A stretch of 60,895 nt of DNA from positions 1 to 60,895 of the IMG/VR virus record IMGVR_UViG_3300012936_000012; one strand, given 5' to 3'. Source of the DNA: a virus. Position numbers and translations under genes: made by a program. The first letter of the stretch is position 1. Each line of letters begins with the position of its first letter. This document shows positions 1,639 to 60,557 of the stretch, one piece after another. The notes under the pieces were generated by a model. The model searched no databases. It saw nothing but the letters and a program-made list of their open reading frames with translations, and was not told the DNA's origin.

Positions 1639-2424
1639 ATGGCCGACATTAACTCAGTTGTAAGAAGAGTGAGATCACGAGTCCATGACGTTGTGTCTCA
1701 AGACAATCGAGAGGACGGCAGGCCATTGTACTTGGATTCATACTACATTGATTCAATTGAGTCGGGTATGGGTCGGTTGAATTTAGACTTAGATTCAACA
1801 TATACAGTAGCATCTCTTCCAGTTAAGTATGAATACTTACTGGAACTAAGATCTACAGTTAACATGTGTTATGTTCGGGGAGGGGAAGGTGCATCGGGAG
1901 ATGTAGAGGACTTCCCCAACGTGCCAGATGCAATAGTGTCTGTTCCACAGTTGTCTGTACAAAGACAACAGATGCCATTAGAGGGGCCTAAATATTGGCT
2001 CAAGATGGCAGAGAAGCTAGACATGGAGTATCAGAACACTTTAGCTCGGTTGCAAGATCGAGGAGATGAGGGTCCTGAAATTCAACAATATGTAATGTCT
2101 AGGATGAGTCTAAGGACAGGCCGAAGGATGCCCTATGTTTATGATAAACCCATTACACCCCCTGACTTTTCAGTGGCAATTGTGGGTAATAGGGTTTCTT
2201 TGGGTTGGGGTATTGTTTATGATGAATATTTCAGACTGTATGAAGTTGAAAGAAGTACCAATAGTGACTTTTCAACAAAATCTGTCGTATTCACAACAAG
2301 TGATAATCAAGTTTCATCATTTAGTCAAAACCTTACTTCTGGTACATATCACTACAGATTAAAGATCACTAATTCTAATGATCTTTATTCTTACACTCAA
2401 TCTTCATCGGTAGTAGTACCATGA
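1639..2424 (+). CDS. Head-tail connector candidate with C-terminal FN3-like domain
   Basis: A 261-residue protein. Residues 1-170 are mostly helical and begin with a D-I-N-S-V-V-R-R-V-R-S-R segment resembling the small helical adaptors that dock on portal rings. Residues 175-261 look like a fibronectin type III or Ig-like beta sandwich: a proline-rich lead-in, alternating hydrophobics, and the G-T-Y-H-Y-R-L-K-I strand near residue 238. Virion proteins often carry such surface-exposed Ig-like domains. It overlaps the next gene by an ATGA, so the two are probably translated together. The adaptor role is inferred from order (capsid to sheath interval). Confidence 0.68.
   Translation: MADINSVVRRVRSRVHDVVSQDNREDGRPLYLDSYYIDSIESGMGRLNLDLDSTYTVASLPVKYEYLLELRSTVNMCYVRGGEGASGDVEDFPNVPDAIVSVPQLSVQRQQMPLEGPKYWLKMAEKLDMEYQNTLARLQDRGDEGPEIQQYVMSRMSLRTGRRMPYVYDKPITPPDFSVAIVGNRVSLGWGIVYDEYFRLYEVERSTNSDFSTKSVVFTTSDNQVSSFSQNLTSGTYHYRLKITNSNDLYSYTQSSSVVVP
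2266..2278 (+). repeat. Copy of 13-bp word GACTTTTCAACAA
   Basis: Exact copy on the + strand, inside the preceding connector-candidate gene, read there as Asp-Phe-Ser-Thr. Confidence 0.7.
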
Positions 2425-2864
2425 AGAGTGTCTTAGATGTCGCAGAAAAGGGCGTAATAACAATTCATAAGACGTACGGTGAAATCGTGCGCCTTATGAA
2501 ATACATGCCTAGTGCAACGGGTGGCATCTACAAGCAAAGAAAAAGACTTTATGAAGCACCATATGAAATATTGGCTAAGGTCAATAGAGATCCAAACCCA
2601 GAACAAATAAGTAAAATTGGGGAATCCTCAGAGCGTAATGCTCATATAACATTACCTGTTCGTTTTTTAATTGATTTGTTTGGGAACTCCACACCTGTCA
2701 AAGAAACAATTACATCAAGTGATTTAATTGTATTTGACAATAGAGTATGGAGAATAACGACATGTGCATTTACTGGCAGAATCGGTGATCGACCTTTAAT
2801 AGTCGAACTTGAACTTAGAGAAAAACTAGGTGAAAAGGAGTCCGATTATTATGGCCGCAGTTAG
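2421..2864 (+). CDS. Putative head-closure or neck protein
   Basis: A 147-residue protein in the neck-gene interval between capsid and sheath. The C-terminal half is beta-rich, with an R-V-W-R-I-T-T strand near residue 110 followed by L-I-V-E-L-E-L-R-E, a pattern like small head-completion and stopper proteins. No catalytic motif is visible. It starts in the ATGA overlap with the upstream gene, and its end overlaps the next gene's start at 2851. The function is a positional inference. Confidence 0.65.
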   Translation: MKSVLDVAEKGVITIHKTYGEIVRLMKYMPSATGGIYKQRKRLYEAPYEILAKVNRDPNPEQISKIGESSERNAHITLPVRFLIDLFGNSTPVKETITSSDLIVFDNRVWRITTCAFTGRIGDRPLIVELELREKLGEKESDYYGRS

Positions 2865-3459
2865 ATCATCTTTTCAGTATGAAGCTAGAGGACTTTTTTT
2901 TGGTGTTAAAATTAACCGTAGAGGTCCGAATTTTAAGAAAGCAATAAAAGGGGCCTTACCGTCAGGTAAAGAGTTCTTAGACGACATGTCTAAGCTTCTA
3001 AGGAACAGGATTGAATCAAGGCTTCCTCGTTTAAAACAAAACCTCAAAGATGGCTCTCCAGGGGCAATTGGTACAATTCAATTTGAATCGACTTCACACG
3101 GTAAACATAAACCGCACAAAGATATACCAAACCCGTTGAGTCTTATCATTGACCATGGAATGAAGTACAGGGTTCATGGTCGTTTAGGTCAAATAAAACT
3201 TGATGTGACGGTTTACAACTTAAGGAAACGCCAAATAAATTTTCATAAAAAAATGGGCAAAACCCCTAAGGTATCTACTGTTCTTAAACGATTTGATGAA
3301 ACTTGTCTTCCATACATAAAATCAGGTAATATGACAAAAATAGCAGACTATTGGACTGCAAACACTTTTCGTGCATTCAATCGTGATTTGAATCGGTATA
3401 TCAAAGACAAAAACCAAGCGTTCTTAGAATCGACAGATCAGTCCAAGGCAGGTGAGTAA
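2851..3459 (+). CDS. Putative tail completion or neck protein
   Basis: A 202-residue basic protein. An upstream in-frame GTG at 2830 exists, but ATG 2851 sits at proper distance behind AAAAGGAG (2833-2840), so I chose it. The sequence contains a P-S-G-K-E-F-L-D-D-M-S-K-L-L-R-N-R helix and a long C-terminal amphipathic helix, similar in outline to the minor tail or neck components that join the portal to the tail. I do not recognise the family. It overlaps the next gene by one base (TAATG). Confidence 0.65.
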   Translation: MAAVRSSFQYEARGLFFGVKINRRGPNFKKAIKGALPSGKEFLDDMSKLLRNRIESRLPRLKQNLKDGSPGAIGTIQFESTSHGKHKPHKDIPNPLSLIIDHGMKYRVHGRLGQIKLDVTVYNLRKRQINFHKKMGKTPKVSTVLKRFDETCLPYIKSGNMTKIADYWTANTFRAFNRDLNRYIKDKNQAFLESTDQSKAGE

Positions 3460-4175: not shown

Positions 4176-4183
4176 GGTAAACA

Positions 4184-6055: not shown

Positions 6056-6061
6056 TAAGCA

Positions 6062-6559: not shown

Positions 6560-6568
6560 GCAAAGATA

Positions 6569-6581
6569 GACTTTTCAACAA
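6569..6581 (+). repeat. Copy of 13-bp word GACTTTTCAACAA, intergenic
   Basis: Exact copy in the 37-base gap between tube and chaperone genes, lying directly upstream of the AAGG ribosome binding site used at 6597. Confidence 0.8.
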
Positions 6582-6596
6582 AATAAGGCAATAATA

Positions 6597-7564: not shown

Positions 7565-7567
7565 TAT

Positions 7568-11343: not shown

Positions 11344-11347
11344 TACC

Positions 11348-13991: not shown

Positions 13992-15344
13992 ATGATTCAA
14001 TACACAGATGAATATGAAACTAAATACAGAGATCGTTTTTTTGGTAAACGCAGAGCAATAGTTGAAAACAACAACGACCCGAACAAGCTAGGCAGAATAA
14101 AAGTTAAGAACCTAGAGTTGTTTGGCAATAGTGCTTCTGCGTGGGCTTCTCCATGTTTTCCTTTTTTTGGTGGACGAGACAGTGGATTCTTCTCTATACC
14201 TCCCGTTGGGTCTTGTGTTTGGATTGAATTCGAAGAGGGTCTATTAGATCACCCTGTCTACACAGGGGGGTATTTTCCTATGATTGATGATGGCCACAGT
14301 AGCGACGGTTCTCCGATTGAGGAATCTGAGGAATTTCAGTCTGCGGGGTCGTCTGTTCCTGCTCATGCAAGGGGTGAGTATGATGGGTCAGATTTTGGTG
14401 GCCTGAAAGGAAACTATGGTTTACCTCCTTCGGAATATGAGGGGGAATATGGAAAGGTGACTTTGCTACAGACTCCTGGGGGGCATATGTTAGAGTTTGA
14501 TGATACTGAAGGCGGAGAGCGTATACAAATTCATCATTCAAAAGGGGCGCATATAGAAATACTCCAAGATGGAAGCATTAATATTGTGTCTGAAGGAAAC
14601 TTAATTACGTATGCAGATAAAATATCAGAGACATCTGAAGGAGACAGGGAATCAAGTATAGGGGGCAACAATTCCTCAACCGTTAATGGTGACTTTTCAA
14701 CAACTGTTGATGGTGGAGAAAAAAAGAGTGTCCAGGGAGAAAGTGAAGTAGATGTTGGGTCTTTTTCATTCAAATCAAATTCAAACTCAACATATCAAAC
14801 TGATGGTGTGTTAAATATGAGTGCTTCAAATTTAATGAATGTGTCTTCCGGTGGAGATATTAATTTTGCTTGTTTAAGTGATATGTTTTTATCAAGTATA
14901 GGTGATTTTAGAGTTGTTAGCTTAAATACACTAGAACTACTATTACCAGGTGCGCCATACGTAAGCCCATCAGTTAATGTTATCGGTCAAAAAGGTACAA
15001 GTAGATTTGTGAGTGAAGATCCTTTGGGTGTCTCGGTTTATGGTATTGAAGCAAGAGGAGGGGTAGGTGGTCAAGTTTACATCGGAAATCTGGGAGATCC
15101 GTTTTCAACATCTAGTTTATCGGTTGGGCCGATACCTTTGGTTAAAGAACCAGTGGTAATGGGACTGCAGTTAGTTTCATATCTTACACAACTAAATGTT
15201 ATTCTTGGCACACTAGCATCGGGTTTAATTGCTACTCCTTTTTCTTCGGTGTCCGGGGCAGGAACATCTTTACTTACAGGTATCGGTGTACTAACCCCTC
15301 AAATTGCAACATTAAATACAACATCAGCTTTTGTGAGTCCATAA
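13992..15344 (+). CDS. Baseplate central spike (gp5/VgrG OB-fold plus beta-helix)
   Basis: A 450-residue cell-puncturing spike. Residues 20-95 form an OB-fold typical of gp5/gpV/VgrG proteins (N-D-P-N-K-L-G-R-I-K-V and P-P-V-G-S-C-V-W-I-E-F). After an acidic Gly/Ser linker, residues 155-290 contain the repeated short strands and H-M-L-E-F-D-D-T pattern that lead into a trimeric beta-helix. No lysozyme domain is visible, unlike T4 gp5. It follows the hub gene by 15 bases with GAGGA as ribosome binding site. Confidence 0.86.
   Translation: MIQYTDEYETKYRDRFFGKRRAIVENNNDPNKLGRIKVKNLELFGNSASAWASPCFPFFGGRDSGFFSIPPVGSCVWIEFEEGLLDHPVYTGGYFPMIDDGHSSDGSPIEESEEFQSAGSSVPAHARGEYDGSDFGGLKGNYGLPPSEYEGEYGKVTLLQTPGGHMLEFDDTEGGERIQIHHSKGAHIEILQDGSINIVSEGNLITYADKISETSEGDRESSIGGNNSSTVNGDFSTTVDGGEKKSVQGESEVDVGSFSFKSNSNSTYQTDGVLNMSASNLMNVSSGGDINFACLSDMFLSSIGDFRVVSLNTLELLLPGAPYVSPSVNVIGQKGTSRFVSEDPLGVSVYGIEARGGVGGQVYIGNLGDPFSTSSLSVGPIPLVKEPVVMGLQLVSYLTQLNVILGTLASGLIATPFSSVSGAGTSLLTGIGVLTPQIATLNTTSAFVSP
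14691..14703 (+). repeat. Copy of 13-bp word GACTTTTCAACAA
   Basis: Exact copy inside the spike gene, read in frame as Asp-Phe-Ser-Thr. Confidence 0.7.
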
Positions 15345-17143: not shown

Positions 17144-17515
17144 ATGCCTTCAATTAGCGGGTTGTCATTGCCATTAAAGATCACACCACGGGGGGGGGTT
17201 TCTCGTTCAATCGGAATAGAGAAGATTAAACAAAATCTAAAAGCATTAATACTTACTTCTATCGGAGACAGGGTAATGAGTCCCCGGATAGGAACGATGG
17301 GTTATATATACCTTTTTAGAAACATGACATTTGAAGAAAGGAATTTGCTTGAAACCCAAATTGCAACAAACCTAGAGAGAGGTGAGCCAAATGTAATTAT
17401 CACAGAAGTAGACATTTTTGATGTGTCCGATCAAGGCAAAATAAATGTTGTGATAAAATTCAAAATAGATCAATACGAAGAGAATTATGATATCTCAGTA
17501 ATTTTGGAGGCTTGA
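17144..17515 (+). CDS. Baseplate wedge protein, gp25-like
   Basis: A 123-residue wedge subunit of the gp25/GpW family, which contacts the sheath base and starts sheath assembly. Visible family features are the early L-P-L-K-I-T-P-R-G-G, the I-K-Q-N-L-K-A-L-I-L-T helix, the G-D-R-V-M-S-P-R-I-G-T loop (about residues 43-53), and the C-terminal alternating strands. It precedes the J-like gene by 1 base, the conserved order in contractile tails. Confidence 0.88.
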   Translation: MPSISGLSLPLKITPRGGVSRSIGIEKIKQNLKALILTSIGDRVMSPRIGTMGYIYLFRNMTFEERNLLETQIATNLERGEPNVIITEVDIFDVSDQGKINVVIKFKIDQYEENYDISVILEA

Positions 17516-17516
17516 G

Positions 17517-19415
17517 ATGGCAATTAGAACTGAACCGAAAACCTTGGGTGGTTTGCCCGTACAAATTGACTACACTGCAAGAGATTACACTTCAATACGT
17601 GAAGAGTTAATAAGACATATTGATTCAATTGCTCCAAACTGGACAGATAGATCCCCATCTGATATAGGAGTAACATTGCTAGAAGCAATGTCTTACATGG
17701 GTGATATTCTTAGTTATAATTTAGATCGAGTTCATAACGAGTCCTACTTAGCAACTGCCCAAACACAACAAGCAGTATCTTATATTTTAAGATTGATTGG
17801 CTATAGCATGTCTCCTCCATCACCTTCAATTGTCTCCATGGTGATCACGACTACACAAAATAATGTAATATTACCTGAGGGGTTCACAGTAAAGACGACA
17901 GACGAAGATGGGGAGCTTCTTGAGTACCAACTAACGGAAGAGGTAAATTTAGCTGTAGCGGGCCGATATGCAGTGTCATATGATGTGAACGACGCAATAC
18001 GCATATACAGTGATCCAAATGTTATTACAGATGATCGTTTACTTTTTGTTGCGGGCAGATCGATAACTGAAGAGTTAGCTATCTCAACAGGTCGTGCAGA
18101 TCAGGCATACCTCACTTCACAAGGCCCTGCATGTATGTCGTCTGACGACAGTTCTCCTGTGAGAGTCTTTGTTGGCTCTACAGAATGGACAAGTAAATCT
18201 TCTTTTGTCGGTACAGAGTCTAATGACACTGTATACACTTATCGTTTTCTCGTAGATGGATTGATATTAATTCAATTTGGGGATGGGGTTCTAGGTCAAA
18301 TACCGACAATAGGTGAAATAATAACAATTACTTATAGGATAAACGGAGGAGAAGAAACGAATAGAGCAGGAGCAGGTACAATAACTTCTTTCACACCAAT
18401 TAGTGGAATATCTAGTGTATACAATGTAAATCAACCAAGTGGAGGAACAGATCGAGAGACTCTCGATCATGCAAAGAAGCATGGTCCGCTTTCATTGAGA
18501 GCAATGGATCGTTGTGTCACATTAGAAGACTTTGAGATTATGGCAATAAATACTCCAGGGGGTGGAATTAGGTCTGCTAGAGCAGTTAGAGGTAGAAGTT
18601 CAATTGATGTTGATGTGTATGTAGCTAGCGAAGGAGAGAATCCAGTGCCTAGTGGATTTTGGTTTTCAGAAATAAACAATGGGTACGGTACAATTGGAGC
18701 AGTAGGAAGATGGTTAGATCAAAAGAAGCCAATACCAACGAGACTCAATGTTCTTGCTCCGACGATGATTGAGATCTATATTGAAGCAAACATATACGTT
18801 TATGCAAATGTGTTAAGAGCTACTGCTAGAGAAGAGGTAGATTTAGCTTTGCAACGTCTTTTTAATTCAATTACAGACAATTTTGGGGAGGGGCTACCTC
18901 TTTCTGCTGTGCATCAAGCAATTGAGAACACCAGAGGGGTTGATTATGTTGATATTATTGAAATGCATAAAACCCCCAAGATGAGGTTATTAAATGGAGA
19001 TCAAAGTGCGTTTGATACTGCTGTTGTTTCTTTTTTTGACTTTGGTCAAAATATTACTGAGCAAGAATATGAGCTAATTTGGTTAGGTGCGGACACATTT
19101 AAACTCAAAGGATCAAAAACAGGGTACGTTTTAAATTCAGATGGGGTGCAAAAGGTCTTTACAACAACTGAAACATGTATTGTTTATATTTATCCTCCAA
19201 ATAATGTAAATAATCCCGACCAAGAACTTCAATTCAAAATTAACTTTTCTTTCACCCAAGATGTTCCTTCCAGGGGCAATATTTGGACGTTTAGTGTGGG
19301 AGTATATGCAGGGAATATTTCTTGTGAAGACCATGAGATATTGGCTTCTCCTTTAGGTTTGAATCTTAGATTAGACCCACAAACGATTAATCTAAATTTC
19401 TTGGGAGGGATCTAA
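17517..19415 (+). CDS. Baseplate wedge protein, J/gp6-like
   Basis: A 632-residue wedge protein that forms the backbone of the baseplate ring. Residues 15-95 match the family's N-terminal signature: Y-T-A-R-D-Y-T-S-I, then S-P-S-D-I-G-V-T-L-L-E and L-D-R-V-H-N-E-S-Y. A G-G-T-D-R-E-T-L segment near residue 309 and D-Y-V-D-I-I-E-M-H near residue 475 belong to the J-like core. The C-terminal 130 residues are an extra beta-rich domain that smaller J proteins lack. Overlap with the next gene is one base (TAATG). Confidence 0.88.
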   Translation: MAIRTEPKTLGGLPVQIDYTARDYTSIREELIRHIDSIAPNWTDRSPSDIGVTLLEAMSYMGDILSYNLDRVHNESYLATAQTQQAVSYILRLIGYSMSPPSPSIVSMVITTTQNNVILPEGFTVKTTDEDGELLEYQLTEEVNLAVAGRYAVSYDVNDAIRIYSDPNVITDDRLLFVAGRSITEELAISTGRADQAYLTSQGPACMSSDDSSPVRVFVGSTEWTSKSSFVGTESNDTVYTYRFLVDGLILIQFGDGVLGQIPTIGEIITITYRINGGEETNRAGAGTITSFTPISGISSVYNVNQPSGGTDRETLDHAKKHGPLSLRAMDRCVTLEDFEIMAINTPGGGIRSARAVRGRSSIDVDVYVASEGENPVPSGFWFSEINNGYGTIGAVGRWLDQKKPIPTRLNVLAPTMIEIYIEANIYVYANVLRATAREEVDLALQRLFNSITDNFGEGLPLSAVHQAIENTRGVDYVDIIEMHKTPKMRLLNGDQSAFDTAVVSFFDFGQNITEQEYELIWLGADTFKLKGSKTGYVLNSDGVQKVFTTTETCIVYIYPPNNVNNPDQELQFKINFSFTQDVPSRGNIWTFSVGVYAGNISCEDHEILASPLGLNLRLDPQTINLNFLGGI

Positions 19416-35636: not shown

Positions 35637-35670
35637 AGAGTCAAAAGTTTTTGAAAAGTCACAATTTTGG

Positions 35671-37965: not shown

Positions 37966-38312
37966 TAAAAGGCAACTTATCCAATACTTTACCGATGACC
38001 CTATGGGTTCATTCTAATGTTCTTTTAGAAAGTAAAGGTAGAAGGTTTTTTGTCGGGCCAAAGAAATACATGTTGAAAAGACAGGATTGGCTATGGTCAA
38101 TAACTTATTTTGTAAAGCCTGTAATCATTTATATTAACGAATCTCCAAATTATTTACTCAGTGATTACGAATCAAAGCACTTTGAAACGATGCATTCTTG
38201 CATACACAACTTAAGACAAAGCAAAAGGGCAATTCACTTAATTGTAGATGACCCCATTTATTTAACAGACGACGTAGTTTTATTTGACTATGACATCAAA
38301 CGATATGGATAA
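37962..38312 (+). CDS. Small hypothetical protein between loader and helicase
   Basis: A 116-residue protein with strand-rich N-terminal half (M-T-L-W-V-H-S-N-V-L-L near residue 12) and C-terminal I-H-L-I-V-D-D-P-I-Y-L-T. No family recognised. It overlaps the loader by ATGA and ends 3 bases before the helicase ATG. It would be co-translated with replication proteins. Confidence 0.6.
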   Translation: MIKGNLSNTLPMTLWVHSNVLLESKGRRFFVGPKKYMLKRQDWLWSITYFVKPVIIYINESPNYLLSDYESKHFETMHSCIHNLRQSKRAIHLIVDDPIYLTDDVVLFDYDIKRYG

Positions 38313-46687: not shown

Positions 46688-47079
46688 AGAAAACTTCTTT
46701 AGGAAGTAAAAAACCTAAGCCAAGTTTTTTTGAAGAGGTCAAGAAAGACAATAAGTCACGTTCTGCAAGGCACGAGAACAGGCTTCAAGGTGTTTTGAGA
46801 TCAAAGACAACCCCTAACAGTGGTGCTTTGCCAAATCTTTCTCAAAAAGGAGATCTACGAGATCAACTTTTTGTTTGGCAAGCTAAACTAACAGACAAAG
46901 ACCGATTTACAATCACTTCTGACGTGATTGTGGAACTGAAAAGACAAGCGTCATTAACTGGTAAGTGGCCTGGTATCTGTTTGACTATAGAGGGGTTGCC
47001 GAATCATGTTGAAAAGGATTGGGTATGTATACCCGCAAATATATTTGCAGAACTAATTGACAACTATAAGGATACATGA
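46684..47079 (+). CDS. Probable Holliday-junction resolvase-like nuclease
   Basis: A 131-residue basic protein. ATG 46684 overlaps the RecA-like stop (ATGA) and follows GGGAGGAGG at 46674-46682. The pattern N-S-G-A-L-P-N-L-S-Q-K-G-D near residue 47 and W-Q-A-K-L-T near residue 65 resembles the S-G-A ... K-G-D ... K core of small phage resolvases of the PD-(D/E)XK superfamily. Coupling with the recombinase gene supports junction processing. No structure-based proof; another nuclease type is possible. Confidence 0.5.
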   Translation: MKKTSLGSKKPKPSFFEEVKKDNKSRSARHENRLQGVLRSKTTPNSGALPNLSQKGDLRDQLFVWQAKLTDKDRFTITSDVIVELKRQASLTGKWPGICLTIEGLPNHVEKDWVCIPANIFAELIDNYKDT

Positions 47080-47086
47080 CAATAAT
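47057..47086 (+). promoter_or_regulatory. Candidate sigma70 promoter before parB-like gene
   Basis: TTGACA at 47057-47062, 18-base spacer, AATAAT at 47081-47086. The expected start point falls on the G[A/T]CTTTTCAACAA copy at 47091. Confidence 0.5.
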
Positions 47087-47090: not shown

Positions 47091-47103
47091 GTCTTTTCAA
47101 CAA
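47091..47103 (+). repeat. One-mismatch copy of 13-bp word (GTCTTTTCAACAA), upstream of parB-like gene
   Basis: Lies between the candidate promoter and the ribosome binding site of the gene at 47125. Confidence 0.7.
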
Positions 47104-47124
47104 CTTCAAGACAAAGGATATGAC

Positions 47125-48006
47125 ATGGAAGTGAAAAAGATAAAGGTAAGCCAAATCGACCTCAACTTAATTACAAATTCCAGAGTTAATATTGATGTTG
47201 ATGATCTTGCAGAGAGTATTGCAACATCAGGGCTAAACAATCCTGTTGGAGTATGTCAGACTGTAGATGGCCGCTATGGTCTAGTTTATGGTTTTAGAAG
47301 ATTCAATGCAGTATCTCGATTGGGTTGGGATGAAATTGATTGCCGCGTTATGAGTGGATTAGATCAATCAGAACTTTTGATTATGAATCTACAAGAGAAT
47401 GTGAGTAGAAAGAACTTGAATCCTATGGAAGAGGCATTGGCAATTCAACGCATTCAAAATCTTGGCAGAGATGTAAATGAGTTTCGTAAAGAACTCGGTT
47501 GGTCTAAGACATTAATTAGTCAAAGATTAGCTTTACTTGAGATGTCTGAAGAAATTATTTACTCATTAAAAAACGATGATATCTCAGTCAATCAAGCGAG
47601 AGCAATAAATCAAGCTCCCGAAGATTTGCAAGAAGAGTTGATCGAATTAGCTAAGATCGGAACAACTGCTAAGTCTCTACGAGAAAAAGTAGACGAATTA
47701 CTAGAATATATTCCAGATGATGATGAAATATTGATTGACGACGACGATGATGTCGTTCAAAGATTATTTGAAGAAGAGAATGAGGTTGATAATGAAGTTT
47801 TGGCAAATTCAATAGCTTCTATGTTAACAAATTTTGGATCTTTATTTAAGAATGAAACTGGCTACTACAAGTTTAAGATTGCTATAAAATCCATTGATTT
47901 CACAGGCATGTCAAACGAAGATCTTAACTCACTTAATACTGCTTTAGAGCGCTTAACAGGACCAGACTGCTTGAATCTTTGGGGGGGCTTTAATGAGCCT
48001 CGATAA
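47125..48006 (+). CDS. ParB-like nuclease-domain protein
   Basis: A 293-residue protein. The ParB/sulfiredoxin domain covers residues 3-95, with L-A-E-S-I-A-T-S-G and Y-G-F-R-R-F-N-A near residue 56, where bacterial ParB has G-E-R-R. An HTH region near residue 130-150 (L-G-W-S-K-T-L-I-S-Q-R) follows. A TTG at 47089 is in frame but would include the repeat motif; ATG 47125 behind AAAGGA is preferred. In phages such proteins act in partitioning, regulation or as DNases. No ParA partner is seen. Confidence 0.8.
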   Translation: MEVKKIKVSQIDLNLITNSRVNIDVDDLAESIATSGLNNPVGVCQTVDGRYGLVYGFRRFNAVSRLGWDEIDCRVMSGLDQSELLIMNLQENVSRKNLNPMEEALAIQRIQNLGRDVNEFRKELGWSKTLISQRLALLEMSEEIIYSLKNDDISVNQARAINQAPEDLQEELIELAKIGTTAKSLREKVDELLEYIPDDDEILIDDDDDVVQRLFEEENEVDNEVLANSIASMLTNFGSLFKNETGYYKFKIAIKSIDFTGMSNEDLNSLNTALERLTGPDCLNLWGGFNEPR

Positions 48007-48850: not shown

Positions 48851-49308
48851 GTGATTTGATAGCAAAGAAATCGATAACAAAATTGGTTTCTCTAGGGTTA
48901 GATGTTCCACATGGAAGAGAAGAGCATCTAGGCTTTCCAGAAGATCTTTCGTCTATACACATAGACGACTTAGGTGTTCATTTGTCTTATTGGGCAAGCA
49001 TGTGTTCTTATGTGCTTTATCAAATAAGTTTGGTTGAAGCAGAGCTAATTGTAAAGAAGCAGTCTTTAGAGGAAGAGTGTGACCTTCGGCTTTATTCTAA
49101 GATGAAGTCGTCTAATATAACTGCAACTCTAGCTAAGAGTGCAGTCGGTAGTTCTAGGTCTGTCTTAGAGCTTAAGAGATCGGTAGCACAAATTGAAGCG
49201 GACTTAAAAGTGTTAAAAGCAGTCTCTTTAGGGTATGATCTTAAGAACTCGGCAATAAGTCGAGAAATAAGCAGAAGACAACAAGAGAGGAATCTTAGAG
49301 ATGACTAA
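48847..49308 (+). CDS. Helical hypothetical protein after Cas4-like gene
   Basis: A 153-residue protein dominated by helices from residue 55 on, with a coiled-coil-like stretch of Leu, Glu, Lys and Ala (about residues 60-140) and a basic end. No family is recognised. ATGA overlap with the nuclease and an 8-base overlap with the SpoVS-like gene keep it in the recombination operon. Confidence 0.62.
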   Translation: MSDLIAKKSITKLVSLGLDVPHGREEHLGFPEDLSSIHIDDLGVHLSYWASMCSYVLYQISLVEAELIVKKQSLEEECDLRLYSKMKSSNITATLAKSAVGSSRSVLELKRSVAQIEADLKVLKAVSLGYDLKNSAISREISRRQQERNLRDD

Positions 49309-49573
49309 AGGAACAATAAACTTGCGAGTAGCAGGAAGAAGCAGGGTCGATGCCGTTGCAGGATCTTGTGTTAAAAACATCGAAGAGGGTAAGTCTGTGA
49401 CATTGACTGCGATAGGTGCAGGTGCAGTCAATCAAATGCTAAAGGCTATCACTATCGCTCGATCCATGGGAGCAAGTAGCGGACTAGATATCTACTTCAA
49501 ATCGGGGTTCGCTACTGAAATCATTGGGGGCGAAGAGAAAACTGCATTAAAAGTATTTTTACATACAAAGTAG
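49301..49573 (+). CDS. SpoVS-like protein (Alba-like fold)
   Basis: A 90-residue protein with clear SpoVS features: V-A-G-R-S-R-V-D-A-V-A-G near residue 9, the signature A-I-G-A-G-A-V-N-Q near residues 37-45, K-A-I-T-I-A-R, and the ending I-I-G-G-E-E-K-T-A-L-K-V. SpoVS is a small Alba-like protein linked to sporulation and cell division in endospore formers and present in Deinococcus-Thermus and spirochaetes. Its role in a phage is not established; nucleic-acid binding is plausible. The neighbours are recombination genes. Confidence 0.85.
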   Translation: MTKGTINLRVAGRSRVDAVAGSCVKNIEEGKSVTLTAIGAGAVNQMLKAITIARSMGASSGLDIYFKSGFATEIIGGEEKTALKVFLHTK

Positions 49574-50329: not shown

Positions 50330-50707
50330 ATGCCCAAAAAATATGACGATTCATGGTTTGTTCCACCAAAAGGAGTCCGAACTGCAGCAGAGCGTGGACT
50401 TAAAAACAGAAAAAAGTACGGACGAGGTGGTTTATCAAATAAACAAGCCTCAGAACAAGGAATTGGTTCTGGGGTCCAACGTGCCGTAAATTTAAAGAAC
50501 GGAAACAAGGTTTCTCCTCAGACGATAAGAAGGATGAAATCTTTCTTCGCTCGACATGAAAAAAACAAGAACTCTCGTAAACCAGATGGTTCGCCAGGAG
50601 CGGGAAAAATTGCTTGGGATCTTTGGGGTGGAGATGCAGGAAAGCGTTGGGCAGAGTCAGTTGATCGAAAGATGAAGAGAGCGGACGAACAGGTTAAAAA
50701 GAAATAA
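50330..50707 (+). CDS. Conserved small basic phage protein (G-x-G-S-G-V / W-x-L-W-G-G-D type)
   Basis: A 125-residue Lys/Arg-rich protein with the blocks Q-G-I-G-S-G-V-Q-R-A, R-R-M-K-S-F-F-A-R-H-E, and A-W-D-L-W-G-G-D-A-G. I recall these blocks from a conserved protein of unknown function in marine and cyanobacterial myoviruses. The composition suggests nucleic-acid binding. It has a strong AAAGGAG site. Confidence 0.7.
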   Translation: MPKKYDDSWFVPPKGVRTAAERGLKNRKKYGRGGLSNKQASEQGIGSGVQRAVNLKNGNKVSPQTIRRMKSFFARHEKNKNSRKPDGSPGAGKIAWDLWGGDAGKRWAESVDRKMKRADEQVKKK

Positions 50708-50714: not shown

Positions 50715-50727
50715 GACTTTTCAACAA
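50715..50727 (+). repeat. Copy of 13-bp word GACTTTTCAACAA, intergenic
   Basis: Exact copy upstream of the gene at 50739; the ribosome binding site AAAGGAT overlaps the last bases of the motif. Confidence 0.8.
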
Positions 50728-50738
50728 AAGGATAAGAC

Positions 50739-52127
50739 ATGAAACTGTGTTTTAGTGGATTCACTAGAAAAGCACACTTAGACGTAATCAAAGAAGCTCA
50801 AGTAAAGTCAGTAGTACTAGATTATGATTGTGATCTACACCGTAATCCTGATCTAATCGATACTTTTGATTTTGTTATAATTAATTACTCTCTAAATAAA
50901 CTTTGGAGTAGATACAAGTATCTTTGGGATGAGTCGAGTGCTAAAAGACAAAAGCAAACAAAAAATAAATCTATTGAAGAACTTCAATTGGGCTTCATGG
51001 AGCGAGCAAGAAAAGAACTAAGGATATATTTGGATTGGGTATCAAAACAGCATGTTGACATTATTGCGTATCCGTCAATCCCAGTAGATGTCGGATATGA
51101 TAGCCTTTGGAAAGAGTATGGACTATTAGATAAAGCAATGCCTACGATTACATCTACTGATCAAATCAAGTCGTACTTGGCTAAGTACGCATATGTTGGT
51201 TATTCTAAAGATCTTGAACTAGAAGAACTCCAAGGAGAAGTGTTTTCAAATATTAGGAAGCACAAAGAGTCTGGTGTAAAAATTCATGGTTGGGGTAGGT
51301 CTTCAAAGAAGGATATTACATCAGGTATATTCTTCTCAGTTGACTCTTCAACTTGGACTGGTGGCGGTAGGTATGGAAATACGTATCACTATGTAGGAAA
51401 CATGAAAATGATTACTCATTCATCTAAACGAGGCAGAGGCAAGGAAGTTAGAGAACAGTTTGCTACCGAGTGTCTTAAGTATGGGGTAGATCGAGATGGT
51501 TTTTTAAACGATGACCAACATCAAGTTGATCTATGGAATTGTTATCAATGGAAAAAGTATTCAATGGACTCAGAGCATGTTGGTGGCTATTGGACTAAAC
51601 GTCAATTGCCTTCTGAAAATAAATCAATTATTAAATCAGAGTCTAAAGCACTTGACCAAATTTTTCATTCAACAGCTCTTGCAAATGGAAATGGTTTTGG
51701 TGCATCATTAAGATCTTGTAATTCGTGCTTCCTAAGTCCGAATTGTCCGGTTTATGTACCAAATTCTCAATGTAATTTATCAGCAGACCCTAAGGTTAAT
51801 ACACCACAAGATCTGCAATCTCTAGTAAACAAGGTCATTCAAATCCAGGGAGAACGAGTTCTCTTTGCATCTTATGCAGAAAAGATCCAAAACAATGGCA
51901 TCAATCCTGAGGTGTCAAATGAAGTTCAGACTTTAATGCAAGTGATGAAGGATGCGAAGGAGGTTCTTGCACCCTCAAGTGATGACGAGATAATGATAAA
52001 AGCAAAAGGAGCAGGTGTAATTTCCAGACTTTTTGGTGGATATGGAAGAAGTGGGGGCGGAGGTTCTCGTCCTTCACAATCAGAGAAAATAATTGACGTT
52101 AGTCCGATGGAGAAAGATGATGAGTGA
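50739..52127 (+). CDS. Hypothetical phage protein with possible TGT/DpdA-like barrel
   Basis: A 462-residue protein. Residues 1-300 alternate strands and helices like a TIM barrel, with D-Y-D-C-D near residue 29, P-S-I-P-V-D-V-G near residue 112, K-I-H-G-W-G-R-S-S near residue 181, and F-S-V-D-S-S-T-W near residue 199. H-x-x-G and V-D-S-S-x-W blocks recall tRNA-guanine transglycosylases and the phage DNA-transglycosylase DpdA, but the match is by eye. A Cys cluster near residue 328 (C-N-S-C ... C ... C) could bind metal. A Gly/Ser linker precedes the C-terminus. No deazaguanine-synthesis genes occur in the window, so the function stays open. Confidence 0.55.
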   Translation: MKLCFSGFTRKAHLDVIKEAQVKSVVLDYDCDLHRNPDLIDTFDFVIINYSLNKLWSRYKYLWDESSAKRQKQTKNKSIEELQLGFMERARKELRIYLDWVSKQHVDIIAYPSIPVDVGYDSLWKEYGLLDKAMPTITSTDQIKSYLAKYAYVGYSKDLELEELQGEVFSNIRKHKESGVKIHGWGRSSKKDITSGIFFSVDSSTWTGGGRYGNTYHYVGNMKMITHSSKRGRGKEVREQFATECLKYGVDRDGFLNDDQHQVDLWNCYQWKKYSMDSEHVGGYWTKRQLPSENKSIIKSESKALDQIFHSTALANGNGFGASLRSCNSCFLSPNCPVYVPNSQCNLSADPKVNTPQDLQSLVNKVIQIQGERVLFASYAEKIQNNGINPEVSNEVQTLMQVMKDAKEVLAPSSDDEIMIKAKGAGVISRLFGGYGRSGGGGSRPSQSEKIIDVSPMEKDDE

Positions 52128-54048
52128 TTTCCCAAATCAGCTCGGTGAATTAGTATATTTAAGATCATACGCAAGATGGCTTCCAGAAGAAAAAAGACGA
52201 GAAAATTGGTCTGAAACAGTAGATCGTGTATACAAATTTTTAATTAAGCCTCAAAATATTGAGGAAACCTTAAAACTAGAGCTAAAAGAAGCAATTTTGA
52301 AACAAGAAGTAATGCCTTCGATGAGAGCCTTGTGGTCTTCAGGGGTATTTGCTACAACGGATAATACTGCTATTTACAATTGCTCGTTTATGCCAATTGA
52401 TAACTTAAAATCGTTCTCTGAACTGATCTACATTTTAATGCAAGGAACAGGTGTTGGTTTTTCAGTAGAGAAGAAGTTTGTAGACAACTTGCCAACGGTT
52501 TCTCCTTCAGTAGAAGTAGAAGAAGAATTAACAATTTATCAAGTCCAAGACTCCTCTGAAGGTTGGGCAGATGCAGTTTATTTTGCAGTCACTTCTGCGT
52601 TTAGAGGACATGCATTTGAAGTAGACTATTCCTTAGTTCGACCAAGAGGGTCAATACTTAAGACAAAAGGTGGACGAGCAAGTGGTCCTGAGCCTTTGAT
52701 TGCTGCAATCAATTTTATCAGAGAAACAATTCGTAATGCTTCGGGTCGAAAGCTAACATCAATTGAGTGTCACGATATTTGTTGTTCTCTTGCAGAGGTG
52801 GTCGTTGTTGGCGGGGTAAGACGGTCTGCAATGATCTCATTTAGTGATCCAGACGACACAGAGATGAGGCACGCAAAAGATTGGAAGAAAGCTTCATTTC
52901 CTTTGCGTAGATATATGTCAAACAACTCCGCATATTTTGCAGAGAAACCACCCAAAGAGGTTTTTGATCGAGAATGGAAACAATTAGCTGAATCGGGTTC
53001 AGGGGAACGAGGGTTGTCAATTGATAACTGGTGGAAGAAAGCAGTTAGACCAAAAGGCGAGGTAAGGTCAAACCCTTGCCATGAAATTGGTCTAAGATAC
53101 AGAGAGGCCGTTGATCCATGGACAGGTGAAGGTGGAGGTGGGCAGTTTTGCAATTTATCTGCAGTAGTGGTGCGATCCGAGGACACAAGAACTAGCCTGC
53201 TTCGTAAAGTGGAGCTTGCAACATGGCTAGGGTGTATCCAAGCCACGTTTACTAATTTCCCCTACCTTCGACCAACTTGGACAGACTTATGTAAAGAAGA
53301 CCGTTTGATTGGTGTTGACTTGACGGGGCAGTGTGATAACCCAGAATTAATGAATAACCTCGACTTCTTGTCAAGATTGAATGTTAGAGCAGTAATGACC
53401 TCAAAGAAAGCGGCAGAGGTTCTAGGCATAAATGAGCCTGCGGCAGTGACTTGTGGTAAGCCAAGTGGGAATACTTCTCAAATGCTAGACTGTGCAAGCG
53501 GATTCCATCCCCGCTATAGTAAATACTACTTTAGACATATTCGAGTAAGTGCAGATGATCCATTGTCGGATTTGTTGAAAAGTCAAGGAGTACCCATGTT
53601 TAAAGAGGTCGGCCAACAGGATTTGCCTTCTGAGCAAGTAAAAACTTGGGTTGCTCGCTTCCCTGTCGAATCTCCCGAAGGATGTATGACCAGGGATGAT
53701 GAGACTTCTTTTGATCAAATGGACAGATATCTGAACATTATGAATACATGGTGTCGATATAAGGGACACAATCAGTCGGCAACTATCTATGTTAAGAATG
53801 ATGATTGGGATAAAGTAGGCCAATGGGTGTGGGATAACTTCGATGACATTATTGGTTTGTCGTTTCTTCCATATGATGGAGGTAAATATCAACTTGCTCC
53901 TTATGAGGAGATAACACAAGAGCAATACGAAGAGGAAATTAAAACTTTCCCGAATATTGACTATACTAAGCTAAGTGATTTTGAAGAATATGATATGGGG
54001 GAAGGTAGTTTTGAAATAGCTTGTACCGGTGGAGCTTGTGAATTGTGA
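52120..54048 (+). CDS. Class II (cobalamin-dependent) ribonucleotide reductase
   Basis: A 642-residue ribonucleoside-triphosphate reductase of the monomeric class II type. Visible features are V-M-P-S-M-R-A-L-W near residue 65, A-I-Y-N-C-S-F near residue 85 (redox Cys), S-N-P-C-H-E-I-G-L near residue 317, G-Q-F-C-N-L-S, and a C-terminal redox pair C-T-G-G-A-C-E-L. It would make deoxynucleotides from ribonucleotides without oxygen, using adenosylcobalamin from the host. Two in-frame ATGs (52117, 52120) follow GGAG; 52120 has the better spacing. It overlaps the preceding gene by 8 bases. Confidence 0.88.
   Translation: MSDFPNQLGELVYLRSYARWLPEEKRRENWSETVDRVYKFLIKPQNIEETLKLELKEAILKQEVMPSMRALWSSGVFATTDNTAIYNCSFMPIDNLKSFSELIYILMQGTGVGFSVEKKFVDNLPTVSPSVEVEEELTIYQVQDSSEGWADAVYFAVTSAFRGHAFEVDYSLVRPRGSILKTKGGRASGPEPLIAAINFIRETIRNASGRKLTSIECHDICCSLAEVVVVGGVRRSAMISFSDPDDTEMRHAKDWKKASFPLRRYMSNNSAYFAEKPPKEVFDREWKQLAESGSGERGLSIDNWWKKAVRPKGEVRSNPCHEIGLRYREAVDPWTGEGGGGQFCNLSAVVVRSEDTRTSLLRKVELATWLGCIQATFTNFPYLRPTWTDLCKEDRLIGVDLTGQCDNPELMNNLDFLSRLNVRAVMTSKKAAEVLGINEPAAVTCGKPSGNTSQMLDCASGFHPRYSKYYFRHIRVSADDPLSDLLKSQGVPMFKEVGQQDLPSEQVKTWVARFPVESPEGCMTRDDETSFDQMDRYLNIMNTWCRYKGHNQSATIYVKNDDWDKVGQWVWDNFDDIIGLSFLPYDGGKYQLAPYEEITQEQYEEEIKTFPNIDYTKLSDFEEYDMGEGSFEIACTGGACEL
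53572..53584 (-). repeat. Copy of 13-bp word GACTTTTCAACAA (minus strand)
   Basis: Exact copy inside the ribonucleotide reductase gene; the + strand reads Leu-Leu-Lys-Ser-Gln. Confidence 0.7.
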
Positions 54049-54091
54049 TAAAATCAAACACGTTTCTAATCAATGCGTGTGAGATATAAAA

Positions 54092-55519
54092 ATGGCTAAA
54101 AAATGGCTAAAGAAAAAAGATGCTATTAAAGCTTTAGGGTTAACAGGCCCTCAACTCAGATATAGATCTGAAGTTAAGGGAGACATAAAGAGAAGAAAAA
54201 AAGACGGAGTTATTGAGTACAGGGTTCAAGATCTTGTAGAGGAATCAATCGAAGAGACTCCTGAGCCTTTTTTCTTTGATGAAGATGCAAGTGGTTATCA
54301 TTATGATCCAAGTGCAGAACAATACCTTTTCTTTAATTTACCAGATCAACCACCTGTAGTAAGAGTAAGTCGCCAAAAGATTGAGTCTTTAATAAAAGAC
54401 TATTCAAATGAAACGGGAGGTCTTACAGTAAATCAAATTGCAGGTAAATATAAGCTCAGTCGGCCTTCAGTGCAGAGAATCTTGTCATACATGGGTAAGA
54501 CACATGATTCCTCTCCATTTACAAACGAGAAGCTCCAGGAATACTCAGAAGACGATCTAGTTGCAGATTTACTTAGATCAAAAGAACAAAGAGTCTTAGT
54601 TAAAGCTCAACAAAAAAGACTTACACTGTCTCAAAAAAAACTAGACGACATATATTTGGTCAAAGAGTTTGTAAATGAAGTAGCAGACAAAATAAAAACC
54701 GTATCGCTTCCAAAATTGAGTTCTAAGGCCATTAAAAACAAAAAAGGCACATACACTGCAGTGATTGGCTTAACTGACCTCCACATAGGAAAGAGAGGCA
54801 TTGACGGCTTCAATAGTCAGGTAGCATCAAATAGGGCGTTAAAAACGACATCGATAGCTAGAGAAAAAGCATTAAGTATGTGGGGAGTTCCTGATCAATG
54901 GGTTATTACATGTGGAAGCGATATGCTACATGTAGATAACTATCGAGGAACAACTGAGCGAGGAACTCCAATGGATACAGATACCGATCCCGTTTCTATG
55001 CTTGCAATTGCATACGCAACAATGGAAACAATTATTGAACAATTGAAGCAAACCGCACCTGTTAAGGTGGTAGCTATATCGGGTAATCACGATAGGCTTC
55101 TTTCTTCAGTTTTGGGAATGATGTTGTCAGCTAGGTACACAAGTGAAGATTCTGTTTCTATTATTGATGGATCAAAAGGTAGTTCATATATTCGATATGG
55201 AAAAACACTTTTAGGATTTAATCATGGGGACACTATCAAACATGAGAAGTTGCCAAATATTATGGCAGGAGAAAGACCTAAAGATTGGGGTGAATGCCAA
55301 GGTAATTGGGAATGGTTTACTGGCCACTTTCATTGTTTAACTTTAAAAGTACATGAGTACAATGGCTGTCGCGTATGGGTCATGCCTGCTTTATCTGGCA
55401 CAGACAGGTGGCATAAGCTTATGGGGTACAATCTTAATCGAAACCAATTAGCAATATTTAAAGTAGAACCAAACAATGGGGTTTGCGCTTTAGAGTTGAT
55501 CCAAGGAAAAGAGAAATAA
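54092..55519 (+). CDS. Calcineurin-like metallophosphoesterase with N-terminal HTH
   Basis: A 475-residue protein. The phosphoesterase domain shows D-L-H-I-G (near residue 230), G-S-D near residue 274, G-N-H-D (about residues 330-333), H-G-D (about residues 380-382) and G-H-F-H (about residues 411-414), the two-metal pattern of calcineurin/Mre11-like enzymes. The first 170 residues contain two helix-turn-helix-like segments (G-L-T-V-N-Q-I-A-G-K-Y-K-L-S near residue 110). It could act on DNA or nucleotides. The ATG has only a weak ribosome binding site, and the gap upstream holds a short inverted repeat CACG ... CGTG. Confidence 0.8.
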   Translation: MAKKWLKKKDAIKALGLTGPQLRYRSEVKGDIKRRKKDGVIEYRVQDLVEESIEETPEPFFFDEDASGYHYDPSAEQYLFFNLPDQPPVVRVSRQKIESLIKDYSNETGGLTVNQIAGKYKLSRPSVQRILSYMGKTHDSSPFTNEKLQEYSEDDLVADLLRSKEQRVLVKAQQKRLTLSQKKLDDIYLVKEFVNEVADKIKTVSLPKLSSKAIKNKKGTYTAVIGLTDLHIGKRGIDGFNSQVASNRALKTTSIAREKALSMWGVPDQWVITCGSDMLHVDNYRGTTERGTPMDTDTDPVSMLAIAYATMETIIEQLKQTAPVKVVAISGNHDRLLSSVLGMMLSARYTSEDSVSIIDGSKGSSYIRYGKTLLGFNHGDTIKHEKLPNIMAGERPKDWGECQGNWEWFTGHFHCLTLKVHEYNGCRVWVMPALSGTDRWHKLMGYNLNRNQLAIFKVEPNNGVCALELIQGKEK

Positions 55520-56205
55520 TGAGAGTAGATATTTATGATGACAATATTGGTTGTGTTGAATTAATTGATTTCATGGGAGATGACCAACGGGCGGTGGCAA
55601 GTGCAAGGGTATCTTTAGCAAAAGATACTGAGACACTAGATCGTGATATGAATGAAAGAGACTTGAAGTTGATGCGTTTCTTAATTAGAGAGTATCACAC
55701 TTCTCCTTTTGAACATTCAACGGCAACGATGCGCATAGTTTGTCCTTTATTCTGTAGATCTCAAATTATGCGGCACAGGACATTTTCATTTAATGAAGTC
55801 AGTAGAAGGTATACTTCAGAGGATCTCAGATTTTATGTTCCAACTTTATTAAGAAAACAAGCCCAAAAAAATCTTCAGTGTTCAACAAACGAAGAGGTAG
55901 AAGATCCATCTCTTTATGATCTTTATGTGCAAAACACAAATTATGCTCTAGCTAACTATAATAAGTTGATTGAAGGAGGGGTGAGTCGAGAGCAGGCAAG
56001 AATGATTTTACCGCAGTCTATGTACACAACCTTTTGGATGACTGGCAATTTATTGAATTGGGTAAAATTTTTAAAATTAAGATTAGATGAACACACTCAA
56101 CATGAAACTAGGTCTGTTGCAAAAGGGGTTTATATGTGTTTGGCAAACGTATTTCCTTTAACAATGAGTGAGATGTTGAAAAGTCAAAAAGGAGTTATTT
56201 TATGA
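55519..56205 (+). CDS. thyX: Flavin-dependent thymidylate synthase ThyX
   Basis: A 228-residue ThyX converting dUMP to dTMP with FAD and methylenetetrahydrofolate. The signature R-H-R-T-F-S-F-N-E-V-S-R-R is at residues 85-97. The C-terminal H-E-T-R near residue 206 and the Q-A-R-M-I-L-P near residue 167 also fit. ATG 55519 overlaps the phosphoesterase stop (TAATG); an upstream in-frame start at 55483 lies inside that gene. With RNR and deoxynucleoside kinase it gives the phage its own dNTP supply. Confidence 0.95.
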   Translation: MRVDIYDDNIGCVELIDFMGDDQRAVASARVSLAKDTETLDRDMNERDLKLMRFLIREYHTSPFEHSTATMRIVCPLFCRSQIMRHRTFSFNEVSRRYTSEDLRFYVPTLLRKQAQKNLQCSTNEEVEDPSLYDLYVQNTNYALANYNKLIEGGVSREQARMILPQSMYTTFWMTGNLLNWVKFLKLRLDEHTQHETRSVAKGVYMCLANVFPLTMSEMLKSQKGVIL

Positions 56206-56414
56206 TGACTCGTATAAAACTAAAAGCTAAAAACATGAATGTAAAATTCAAGGAGTTAGCAGATCTCGCAGGGATTTCTTATACTTATACTGTTCAGATT
56301 TTGGCAGGAAAGCGAAGACCGAGTGTTGAAGTAGCAAAGAAGTTAGCAGTAGCTTTTAATAAAATTGTGGGTAAAGAAGAAGTATTTGCAAAAGATTTCA
56401 ATCCTAAATCATAG
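56202..56414 (+). CDS. Small Cro/XRE-family helix-turn-helix regulator
   Basis: A 70-residue protein with an XRE HTH: K-F-K-E-L-A-D-L-A-G-I-S-Y-T-Y-T near residues 15-30, followed by R-R-P-S-V-E-V-A-K-K-L-A. It starts in ATGATG after AAAAAGGAG and overlaps the ThyX stop. It likely binds DNA as a dimer and regulates phage genes. The 51 bases after it contain the leader of the PhoH-like gene. Confidence 0.78.
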   Translation: MMTRIKLKAKNMNVKFKELADLAGISYTYTVQILAGKRRPSVEVAKKLAVAFNKIVGKEEVFAKDFNPKS

Positions 56415-56465
56415 TTAAACTGAGTTTTGATAACATCAAGTGTACATACAAACAATGGAGGCTGT

Positions 56466-57537: not shown

Positions 57538-57568
57538 AAGTTGTTGAAAAGACTTTTTTTATTTTTTT
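57536..57568 (+). terminator. Weak candidate terminator between convergent genes
   Basis: A 6-bp A/T-rich stem (AAAAGT with ACTTTT), loop containing a copy of the repeated 13-bp word, then T-runs of seven and seven separated by A. It directly follows the last + strand gene. Confidence 0.4.
57541..57553 (-). repeat. One-mismatch copy of 13-bp word (GTCTTTTCAACAA, minus strand)
   Basis: Located between the convergent gene ends, within the possible hairpin. Confidence 0.65.
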
Positions 57569-59478: not shown

Positions 59479-59488
59479 TGTAGTCCTT

Positions 59489-59968
59489 TCATGTAGTTTG
59501 TCTTAAGCGTTTTCTTGCTCTATATAAGCGTACTTTGTACGCAGATTCGGAAACCCCGATTTCTTTTGATGCTTTCTCAGCTTTGATGCCTTTAACAGCA
59601 TTAACAATTACATCTTTATCAAAATCATTAAGTTTATTAAAATTATCTATAACAGTATTAAGTTCGGTTTTGTCAATAAATTTCTTTTCTGGTGTTGAGT
59701 AATCAATTAGTTCTAGGTCGAAAAAGCGTGTTATTTGCTTATCTCTGTACGTATCTCTTCGTAGTTTTTCATTGCATAGGTTTTTTGCTATTTTATATAT
59801 CCAAGTACTTAATTTACACTTTTTTTTAAATTTATGAACATTTGCTAAAGCTAATACAAATACATCCTGTGTAAATTCTTCAGAAGTAAATCGATCATAA
59901 TACGGAGTAAAGATTGCCATGATTTTGTATTTTAGTTTTGGATACAAGGCTTCAATTTCTTTCTTCAC
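59489..59968 (-). CDS. ECF-type sigma factor
   Basis: A 159-residue sigma factor with the two ECF domains: sigma2 at residues 8-70 (F-T-Q-D-V-F-V-L-A-L-A-N-V, then T-W-I-Y-K-I-A-K-N) and sigma4 at residues 105-155 (V-I-V-N-A-V-K-G-I-K-A-E-K-A and S-E-S-A-Y-K-V-R-L-Y-R-A-R). The start is GTG 59968, 7 bases behind AAGGA. It would redirect host RNA polymerase to phage promoters of a new specificity. It overlaps the kinase gene by 17 bases and precedes the methyltransferase, so the three form a leftward operon. A phage-encoded ECF factor is uncommon. Confidence 0.82.
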   Translation of the reverse strand: MKKEIEALYPKLKYKIMAIFTPYYDRFTSEEFTQDVFVLALANVHKFKKKCKLSTWIYKIAKNLCNEKLRRDTYRDKQITRFFDLELIDYSTPEKKFIDKTELNTVIDNFNKLNDFDKDVIVNAVKGIKAEKASKEIGVSESAYKVRLYRARKRLRQTT

Positions 59969-60557
59969 TTTTTTTTCCTTTTAAGGTTGTTGAAAAGTCT
60001 TTAACTATATTAAGAACACTATCTAAAATATTTTCTTTACTATCTGATCCATTTATCAATACAATTTCAACCCCTTTAGCTCCCATATCCTCAAGAAAAA
60101 GTTCATAGGCTACTTTTTGGCGCAACAGGAAACCATAGTTAACATCTTGATCAATATTTCCACGGGCTTTAACTCGACTCATAGCTTGCTCAGTTTCAAT
60201 ATCAAGAAAGAAGATCACATCAGGCAAAGGAGATGATTCAAGAAAAATTCGGCGTGCCTCTAAATAAAGGTCAAATTCAGAGCAAGAAAGATCACCATAA
60301 GAAAAACCAACTCTAGCAAACACACTATCAGACCAAACACTTCGATCATAAACATTGATCATACCAGGCAAAGAATCCCGCCATTGGTTATACCTAGACT
60401 TCAAAAACTTTATCTGAGTTAAAAACCCATTATCTACTTCACTTTCAAACATAATGGCCTCGTCAAAAACATTAAAATTTTCGGCGCACTGAAGACCTTT
60501 AACTAAACTACTTTTACCAACTCCCATAATCCCTTCCACACATATGCGAATTGTCAT
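59952..60557 (-). CDS. Deoxynucleoside kinase
   Basis: A 201-residue P-loop kinase. The P-loop is G-I-M-G-V-G-K-S-S (9-17), the D-R-S motif occurs in V-Y-D-R-S-V-W-S-D near residue 69, and a lid R-V-K-A-R-G-N near residue 128 follows. This is the deoxyribonucleoside/thymidine-kinase-type pattern, giving dNMPs from salvaged nucleosides. The C-terminus is basic. It starts at ATG 60555-60557 behind AGGGAG and leads the leftward operon. Confidence 0.84.
   Translation of the reverse strand: MTIRICVEGIMGVGKSSLVKGLQCAENFNVFDEAIMFESEVDNGFLTQIKFLKSRYNQWRDSLPGMINVYDRSVWSDSVFARVGFSYGDLSCSEFDLYLEARRIFLESSPLPDVIFFLDIETEQAMSRVKARGNIDQDVNYGFLLRQKVAYELFLEDMGAKGVEIVLINGSDSKENILDSVLNIVKDFSTTLKGKKSEERN
59987..59999 (-). 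repeat. Copy of 13-bp word GACTTTTCAACAA upstream of the sigma factor
   Basis: Exact copy on the - strand, in the end of the kinase gene and 10 to 20 bases upstream of the sigma factor's ribosome binding site; a TATAGT hexamer lies four bases before it. Confidence 0.78.

Follow-up and report, generated by a model that had tools for sequence, protein, structure and literature searches.

Related systems

Phages and mobile elements commonly encode ParB-family proteins without a ParA partner, and little has been established about what most of these proteins bind or do (PMC12704722). The virus record IMGVR_UViG_3300012936_000012, a linear record of 60,895 bp that was analyzed at its full length (the window), encodes a tailed phage with a contractile sheath and an orphan protein of this kind, and a 13-bp word, GACTTTTCAACAA, recurs along it. 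The described systems closest to this combination are the dispersed sites of KorB, Noc, SopB and another phage-encoded ParB, and the stoperators of mycobacteriophages.

KorB of the IncP-1 plasmid RK2 is a ParB-family cytidine triphosphatase (CTPase) clamp with a fold similar to that of the window's protein (Z 15.6 to 8qa9), and its operator, O_B, is found near and far from promoters, as the word is; RK2 has 12 KorB sites according to the title of reference 20 in PMC11790492, compared with 15 sites in 61 kb here. However, O_B is a proper palindrome and KorB has KorA and the ParA protein IncC as partners, whereas in this phage setting the dyad is imperfect and varies between clades, no ParA was found in the records searched and no KorA equivalent was identified in the genomes. 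Noc of Firmicutes is the best match in both sequence and fold (7ng0, 7nfu), and it too has many dispersed sites and no ParA. The Noc-binding site (NBS) differs in being a 16-bp palindrome on the chromosome, and at specificity positions 173 and 179 (Caulobacter numbering) Noc has Gln and Lys (PMC7383237), whereas all of the phage proteins have Lys and Arg.

The phage-plasmid N15 also combines a phage ParB-type protein, SopB, with single sites (IR1-4) spread over the genome, but N15 has SopA, four sites and a role in plasmid prophage maintenance (PMC7205306), whereas the present phages have 10-30 sites and yielded neither ParA nor a tyrosine integrase. In Aphanizomenon phage Yong-DA (ON073792; L189), whose ParB is 36% identical, four copies of TTCAGACGTCTGAA are dispersed over 42.6 kb (3728, 15526, 31877 and 38139), one of them inside parB, and these are likely parS sites. 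That phage is unlike the present one in that ParA lies beside ParB, the gene set is plasmid-like, there is a recombinase, and the copies are perfect palindromes; it is an independent hint that such ParB proteins use dispersed sites.

The spelling of stoperators is clade-specific. Those of cluster A mycobacteriophages resemble the present element in being a 13-bp word with more than 20 copies, but their orientation follows transcription (PMC9283540). The repressor of stoperators is monomeric and belongs to a different family.

Occurrence and conservation of the word

Nine exact copies of GACTTTTCAACAA were found in the window, at 2266, 6569, 14691, 34256, 43233 and 50715 on the plus strand and at 27071, 53572 and 59987 on the minus strand, whereas dinucleotide shuffles averaged 0.03 copies and never contained more than one. 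The original prediction had listed eight copies, all of which are real, and had overlooked that at 34256. Fourteen copies were present when one mismatch was allowed (0.28 expected), comprising, besides the exact ones, GTCTTTTCAACAA at 19706, 47091 and 57541, as already recorded in that prediction, and two further forms at 35648 and 56173. The word is the most frequent 13-mer of the window, in which its backward reading has no occurrence. Shuffling synonymous codons while keeping all proteins left a mean of 2.2 exact copies, two of them being intergenic copies beyond the reach of the shuffle; seven exact copies are genic, against about 0.2 expected. A comparison with sequence shuffled under constant codon and dinucleotide usage had been proposed with the prediction, as had a search of relatives, and the count lay far above both types of shuffle, which rules out chance or codon usage as the origin of the word. 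Because copies occur on either strand, in several frames and also outside genes, a shared peptide is not their cause. The reading Asp-Phe-Ser-Thr that had been noted earlier applies to some copies only; others read LTFQQF, VVEKSE or LLKSQG, or are antisense or intergenic. The 16-bp form of the word is TGACTTTTCAACAACT, and the window's spelling of the site is also written AAGTTGTTGAAAAGTCA.

Relatives were obtained through PolA and sheath searches (G001, G002, G004, G005 and G006, then G014, G023, G024, G025 and G026) and, for G031, through ParB. All are uncultured phages collinear with the window; some of the records are partial, G005, G006 and G023 being long ones. Each carried the word, either as such or respelled, with 10-30 copies per genome. 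Spelling varied by clade: TG[AT]CTTTTCAACAA; A[CG]TTTTCAACAACT; GACTTGTCAACAACT, used by G026 and G002; AGTTTTCAAAAACT, used by G023; and, in distant kin, GTTTGTCAA, with eight copies in G025 and 29 in G031 (about 0.4 and 0.3 expected). G004 holds 15 exact copies of GWCTTTTCAACAA in 47 kb, and G005 and G006 hold eight and six exact copies, respectively, plus one-mismatch forms. In the remoter PolA relatives L015-L018, L020 and L021 the word was absent or present as a single copy. When viral contigs were scanned for a 14-mer pattern, most of the matches listed were chance single ones, and several copies were seen in no examined contig other than G005 and G014. The first 25 kb of the window had no close DNA relative among 50,697 phage records; no tRNAs were found, and the host was not identified.

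Sites were mapped between genomes through aligned proteins with a tolerance of 45 bp, and the sharing was compared with 2000 random shifts. The window shared ten places with G004 (0.25 expected), six with G005 (0.24), five with G006 (0.25) and four with G026 (0.08); G005 and G006 shared 11 (0.21), and G006 and G023 shared seven (0.12). None of the 2000 shifts matched the observed sharing between the window and G005, G006 or G026, or between G006 and G023. The sites thus occupy orthologous places despite protein identities of 45-70%.

The place kept most widely is that of the exact copy at 27070-27083 (minus strand), antisense in gene 26932-27210, where seven genomes have a site in the spellings of their own clades. 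The window, G004, G006 and G024 read GTTGTTGAAAAGTC there. G026 reads GTTGTTGACAAGTC, its own spelling with TTGTCAA (TTGACAAG), at the price of a Glu-to-Asp substitution; the G023 sequence, GTTATTGAAAAC, is likewise one of that genome's own forms. The exact copy at 2266-2279 (plus strand), inside gene 1639-2424, falls in the same codons in G001, G002, G005 and G006, and is spelled GACTTGTCAACAAC in G002, where Phe is changed to Leu. Typical 14-base windows are 54-58% identical between the window and these clades, and about 2% reach 13/14. Concerted respelling at several loci implies a trans-acting DNA-binding protein with shifting specificity and, as it occurs among related phages, a phage factor in place of a host-derived word. 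The words are almost certainly dispersed DNA-level sites of a phage protein.

Anatomy, spacing and orientation of the sites

The core of the site is a 14-bp imperfect palindrome, A[CG]TTkTC followed by AAmAACT, with its axis at the middle. Each of the eight genomes tested had its best dyad axis at this point, with a complementarity of 0.50-0.79, and the pairs matched numbered four of seven in the window, five of seven in G026 and six of seven in G023, where the dyad is nearly perfect. An imperfect palindrome of this kind points to a dimer making two contacts. An extended 5' box (CTA) in G005, G006 and G023 was considered as part of the core and rejected, being real in G023 (11/14) and absent from the window.

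Sites were spaced at about 4 kb in the window and roughly evenly, at 2.5-6 kb, across genomes. This spacing was more even than random in the window (P=0.006), G005 (0.001), G006 (0.003), G023 (0.009) and G031 (0.015), although these P values are not independent, the sites being shared by descent and their definitions having been picked by eye for each clade. Intergenic sites were enriched, with five of 15 in the window compared with about 0.7 expected (4%), and ten of 14 in G023. Orientation showed no bias relative to transcription in six genomes (co-oriented to counter-oriented 9:5, 10:7, 9:8, 7:10, 7:6 and 3:4), and at least five copies in the window are antisense or opposite to transcription; orientation is fixed by place and not by the transcript. 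The translational repressor and the RNA-processing factor that the original prediction had offered as options are disfavored on these grounds. No RNA element was apparent either, the copies having both orientations and no conserved flanking pairing; a hairpin at the word was rejected, as some flanks are complementary (AACTCAGA..TCTAAGTT), yet column covariation gave no consistent stem.

The ParB-like protein as candidate binder

The binder of the word is, on balance, probably the orphan ParB-like protein of 293 amino acids encoded at 47125-48006 (plus strand). A protein-binding element possibly served by this protein had been proposed previously; selection at the DNA level and drift between clades support that proposal, in which the binder's identity is inferred and the nucleoid or ParB option is the best supported. 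The protein (PF02195, ParB_N) was present in eight of the 11 records searched, and the three without it (G001, G002 and G024) are fragments that fall short of its locus. It carries an HTH_ParB domain (PF17762, E=2.2e-11), and was the only one of the conserved proteins scanned with a helix-turn-helix domain suited to a 14-bp dyad. Its nearest families by profile are Noc (E=7.5e-26), Spo0J/ParB and KorB (E=5e-16), and the predicted model (predicted local distance difference test score 78) gave Z 15.7 to Noc and 15.6 to KorB (8qa9) over residues 1-196, and Z 10.6 with a root-mean-square deviation of 2.1 over 113 residues to the Noc-NBS complex 6y93. The CTP-binding motifs GxRR and ENxxR are invariant in all eight aligned proteins. 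The recognition helix, GWSKTLITQRL (LGWSKT-ITQRL), is near-invariant, with whole-protein identity to the window's copy down to 30-46%, and residue 201, which reads a base in Noc, is Asn, Gly, Arg, Thr or Ala, which fits an evolving specificity.

A site (GTCTTTTCAACAA, 47091-47104, plus strand) lies just 5' of the ribosome-binding site of the ParB-like gene, and the gene start is similarly marked in G004, G005, G006, G023 and, in its own spelling, G025. In the window this site directly follows a promoter-like TTGACA-18-AATAAT (47057-47086, plus strand), a consensus match only. It had been placed at a predicted transcription start; its position behind the promoter-like sequence agrees with this, but such sequences are no commoner there than in shuffles.

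ParA (PF13614) was detected in none of 11 records, which may be incomplete, and in 14 of 14 controls. A tyrosine integrase was likewise found in none of the 11, serine integrases and ParM/TubZ-type partners not having been searched. Without ParA or a tyrosine integrase, plasmid-prophage partition is unlikely. No relative of this ParB-like protein was confirmed in bacterial genomes.

Several observations weigh against assigning the word to the ParB-like protein. The window's dyad, at four of seven base pairs, is weaker than a usual parS. Even spacing was not significant in G004 (0.08, marginal) or G026 (0.43). Residue 201 does not covary cleanly with spelling, being Asn in both the window and G031, which spell the word differently, and Gly in G014, which spells it like G005. 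G014, G026 and G031 have no site at the start of the ParB-like gene, and the site before gene 6597 is as widely shared, so that the location at the ParB-like gene is not unique. The SpoVS-like protein, the proteins at 49580 and 48847 and the O-like initiator are possible binders as well.

Possible mode of action

By analogy with chromosomal ParB, Noc and KorB, a dimer of the ParB-like protein would load at each site, close around the DNA with CTP and slide off, and loading points every 4 kb or so would let the clamps reach most of the genome; KorB clamps are able to reach a promoter at a distance of 1.5 kb (PMC11790492). Where a copy lies in a promoter or leader, as at the ParB-like gene itself, local repression and autoregulation would be added. 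All nine phage proteins have GFRR in place of the GERR of ParB, replacing the catalytic Glu with Phe. Substitution at this residue in the Caulobacter protein (E102A) gives a locked clamp, whose spreading in E. coli covers about 26 kb instead of about 5 kb (PMC8367383). A tentative extension of this analogy, doubtful in itself, is that locked clamps loaded every 4 kb or so would cover the whole phage genome during its replication and serve as its nucleoid, as a global silencer or as a shield, with no part in partition. The phage family offers a ready set of predicted sites, in about 12 genomes and with clade-specific spellings, for work on specificity, clamp behavior and function; if the ParB-like protein is the binder, the family would further document clearly how ParB and its sites have co-evolved in nature, genic sites having been respelled at a cost in amino acids.

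Alternative explanations

Another conserved DNA-binding protein of the phage (the SpoVS-like protein, the O-like initiator or an uncharacterized small protein from the same gene block) could bind the word in DNA compaction, replication or recombination. The genes of these candidates, too, are retained in G014, G023, G025 and G031, and the block includes RecA, a Holliday-junction resolvase and a Cas4-like exonuclease beside the ParB-like and SpoVS-like proteins. Initiators usually bind clustered iterons, however, whereas the sites here are evenly single, and SpoVS is not known to have a specific site; with the helix-turn-helix domain confined to the ParB-like protein among those scanned, such a binder is unlikely. 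The SpoVS-like protein (49301-49573) is 53-88% identical in the relatives. A 125-amino-acid lysine-rich protein (50330-50707) was rejected as a general binder, being missing from G025 and G031. It is 86-94% identical in G004, G005, G006 and G023, many of its neighbors being 45-60% identical in G005, G006 and G023. A cluster of AAAATCTATCGATAGATTTT repeats lies 3' of its homologue in G005 (17434-17540), G006 (55374-55490) and G023 (37273-37365), and looks like replication-origin iterons or an operator cluster.

A network of stoperators or operators, through which a non-ParB phage repressor would block transcription genome-wide, as in cluster A mycobacteriophages, would account for a 13-bp asymmetric-looking word with more than ten copies, kept places and clade-specific spelling, and for the enrichment of sites between genes. 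The orientation bias of stoperators was not seen in the six genomes, no tyrosine integrase was found in the 11 records, and the HTH_3 protein (56202-56414), which was rejected as a general binder, is missing from G005, G006, G014 and G023; this explanation is considered rather improbable.

It is very unlikely that the word is a promoter element (a -35 region) for host or phage RNA polymerase. In G031 and G025 it reads GGTTcTTGACAAAC on the coding strand, with a -35-like TTGACA and a -10-like hexamer 16-18 bp further on (P<0.0005 and 0.015), but there was no -10 enrichment in the window, G004, G005 or G006 (P 0.82-0.93), and many copies lie deep in genes or antisense. The phage sigma factor suggested by the original prediction is disfavored by the same lack of a -10 element in the window's clade and because the extracytoplasmic function (ECF) sigma gene (59489-59968) is absent from G005, G006 and G023, with 13-19 sites each; as a general binder its product was rejected since it is also missing from G014, and all four keep the word. 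Judged by their sequence, the sites of G031 and G025 are probably operators on promoters. G031 (L191, L312-L315), a GC-richer relative, has its 29 copies of GTTTGTCAA in 77.5 kb, 26 of them in one orientation and many before genes with a -35/-10-like layout, and these form a candidate promoter-operator series.

That the phage gathered a host-derived word (an uptake signal, a Chi-like sequence or a host ParB site) is hardly credible: such a word would be dispersed on both strands in genes and between them, but the 16-mer gave only scattered single copies per contig among the matches listed from 85,000 bacterial and archaeal species, and the respelling indicates a phage factor.

Other sites and features of the window

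The exact copy at 6569-6582 (plus strand) is intergenic, 16 bp before the start of the baseplate-like gene 6597, at a place shared with G001, G002, G005, G006 and G023. Further plus-strand sites lie inside genes: an exact copy at 14691-14704 in gene 13992-15344, shared with G024 and 25 bp from a site in G026; GTCTTTTCAACAA at 19706-19719 in gene 19415-20851, common to G004 and 12 bp from a G026 site; and exact copies at 34256-34269 in gene 33651-35030, common to G004, and at 43233-43246 in the helicase gene 43098-44357, common to G004 and at the same point in G026. On the minus strand, the exact copy at 53571-53584 is antisense in the ribonucleotide reductase gene, in the same codons in G004, G005 and G006, and that at 59986-59999 is just upstream of the ECF sigma gene, at a place shared with G004 and G005. 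Also on the minus strand are the intergenic one-mismatch site GACTTTTCAAAAA (35648-35660), the two-mismatch site GTCTTTTCAACAT (38070-38082), where G004 has the full word, GACTTTTCAACAT (one mismatch, 56173-56185), 17 bp before the HTH_3 gene and common to G004, and GTCTTTTCAACAA (57541-57553), between converging genes.

The exact copy at 50715-50728 (plus strand), common to G004, is intergenic and 12 bp before gene 50739. The protein encoded there (50739-52127) matches phage queuine tRNA-ribosyltransferase families and may take part in 7-deazaguanine modification of the phage DNA. Lastly, a near-palindrome, CTTTAGCTAAA, occurs four times in the window (3490, 8182, 8517 and 36643), and presumably resembles the KorB operator.

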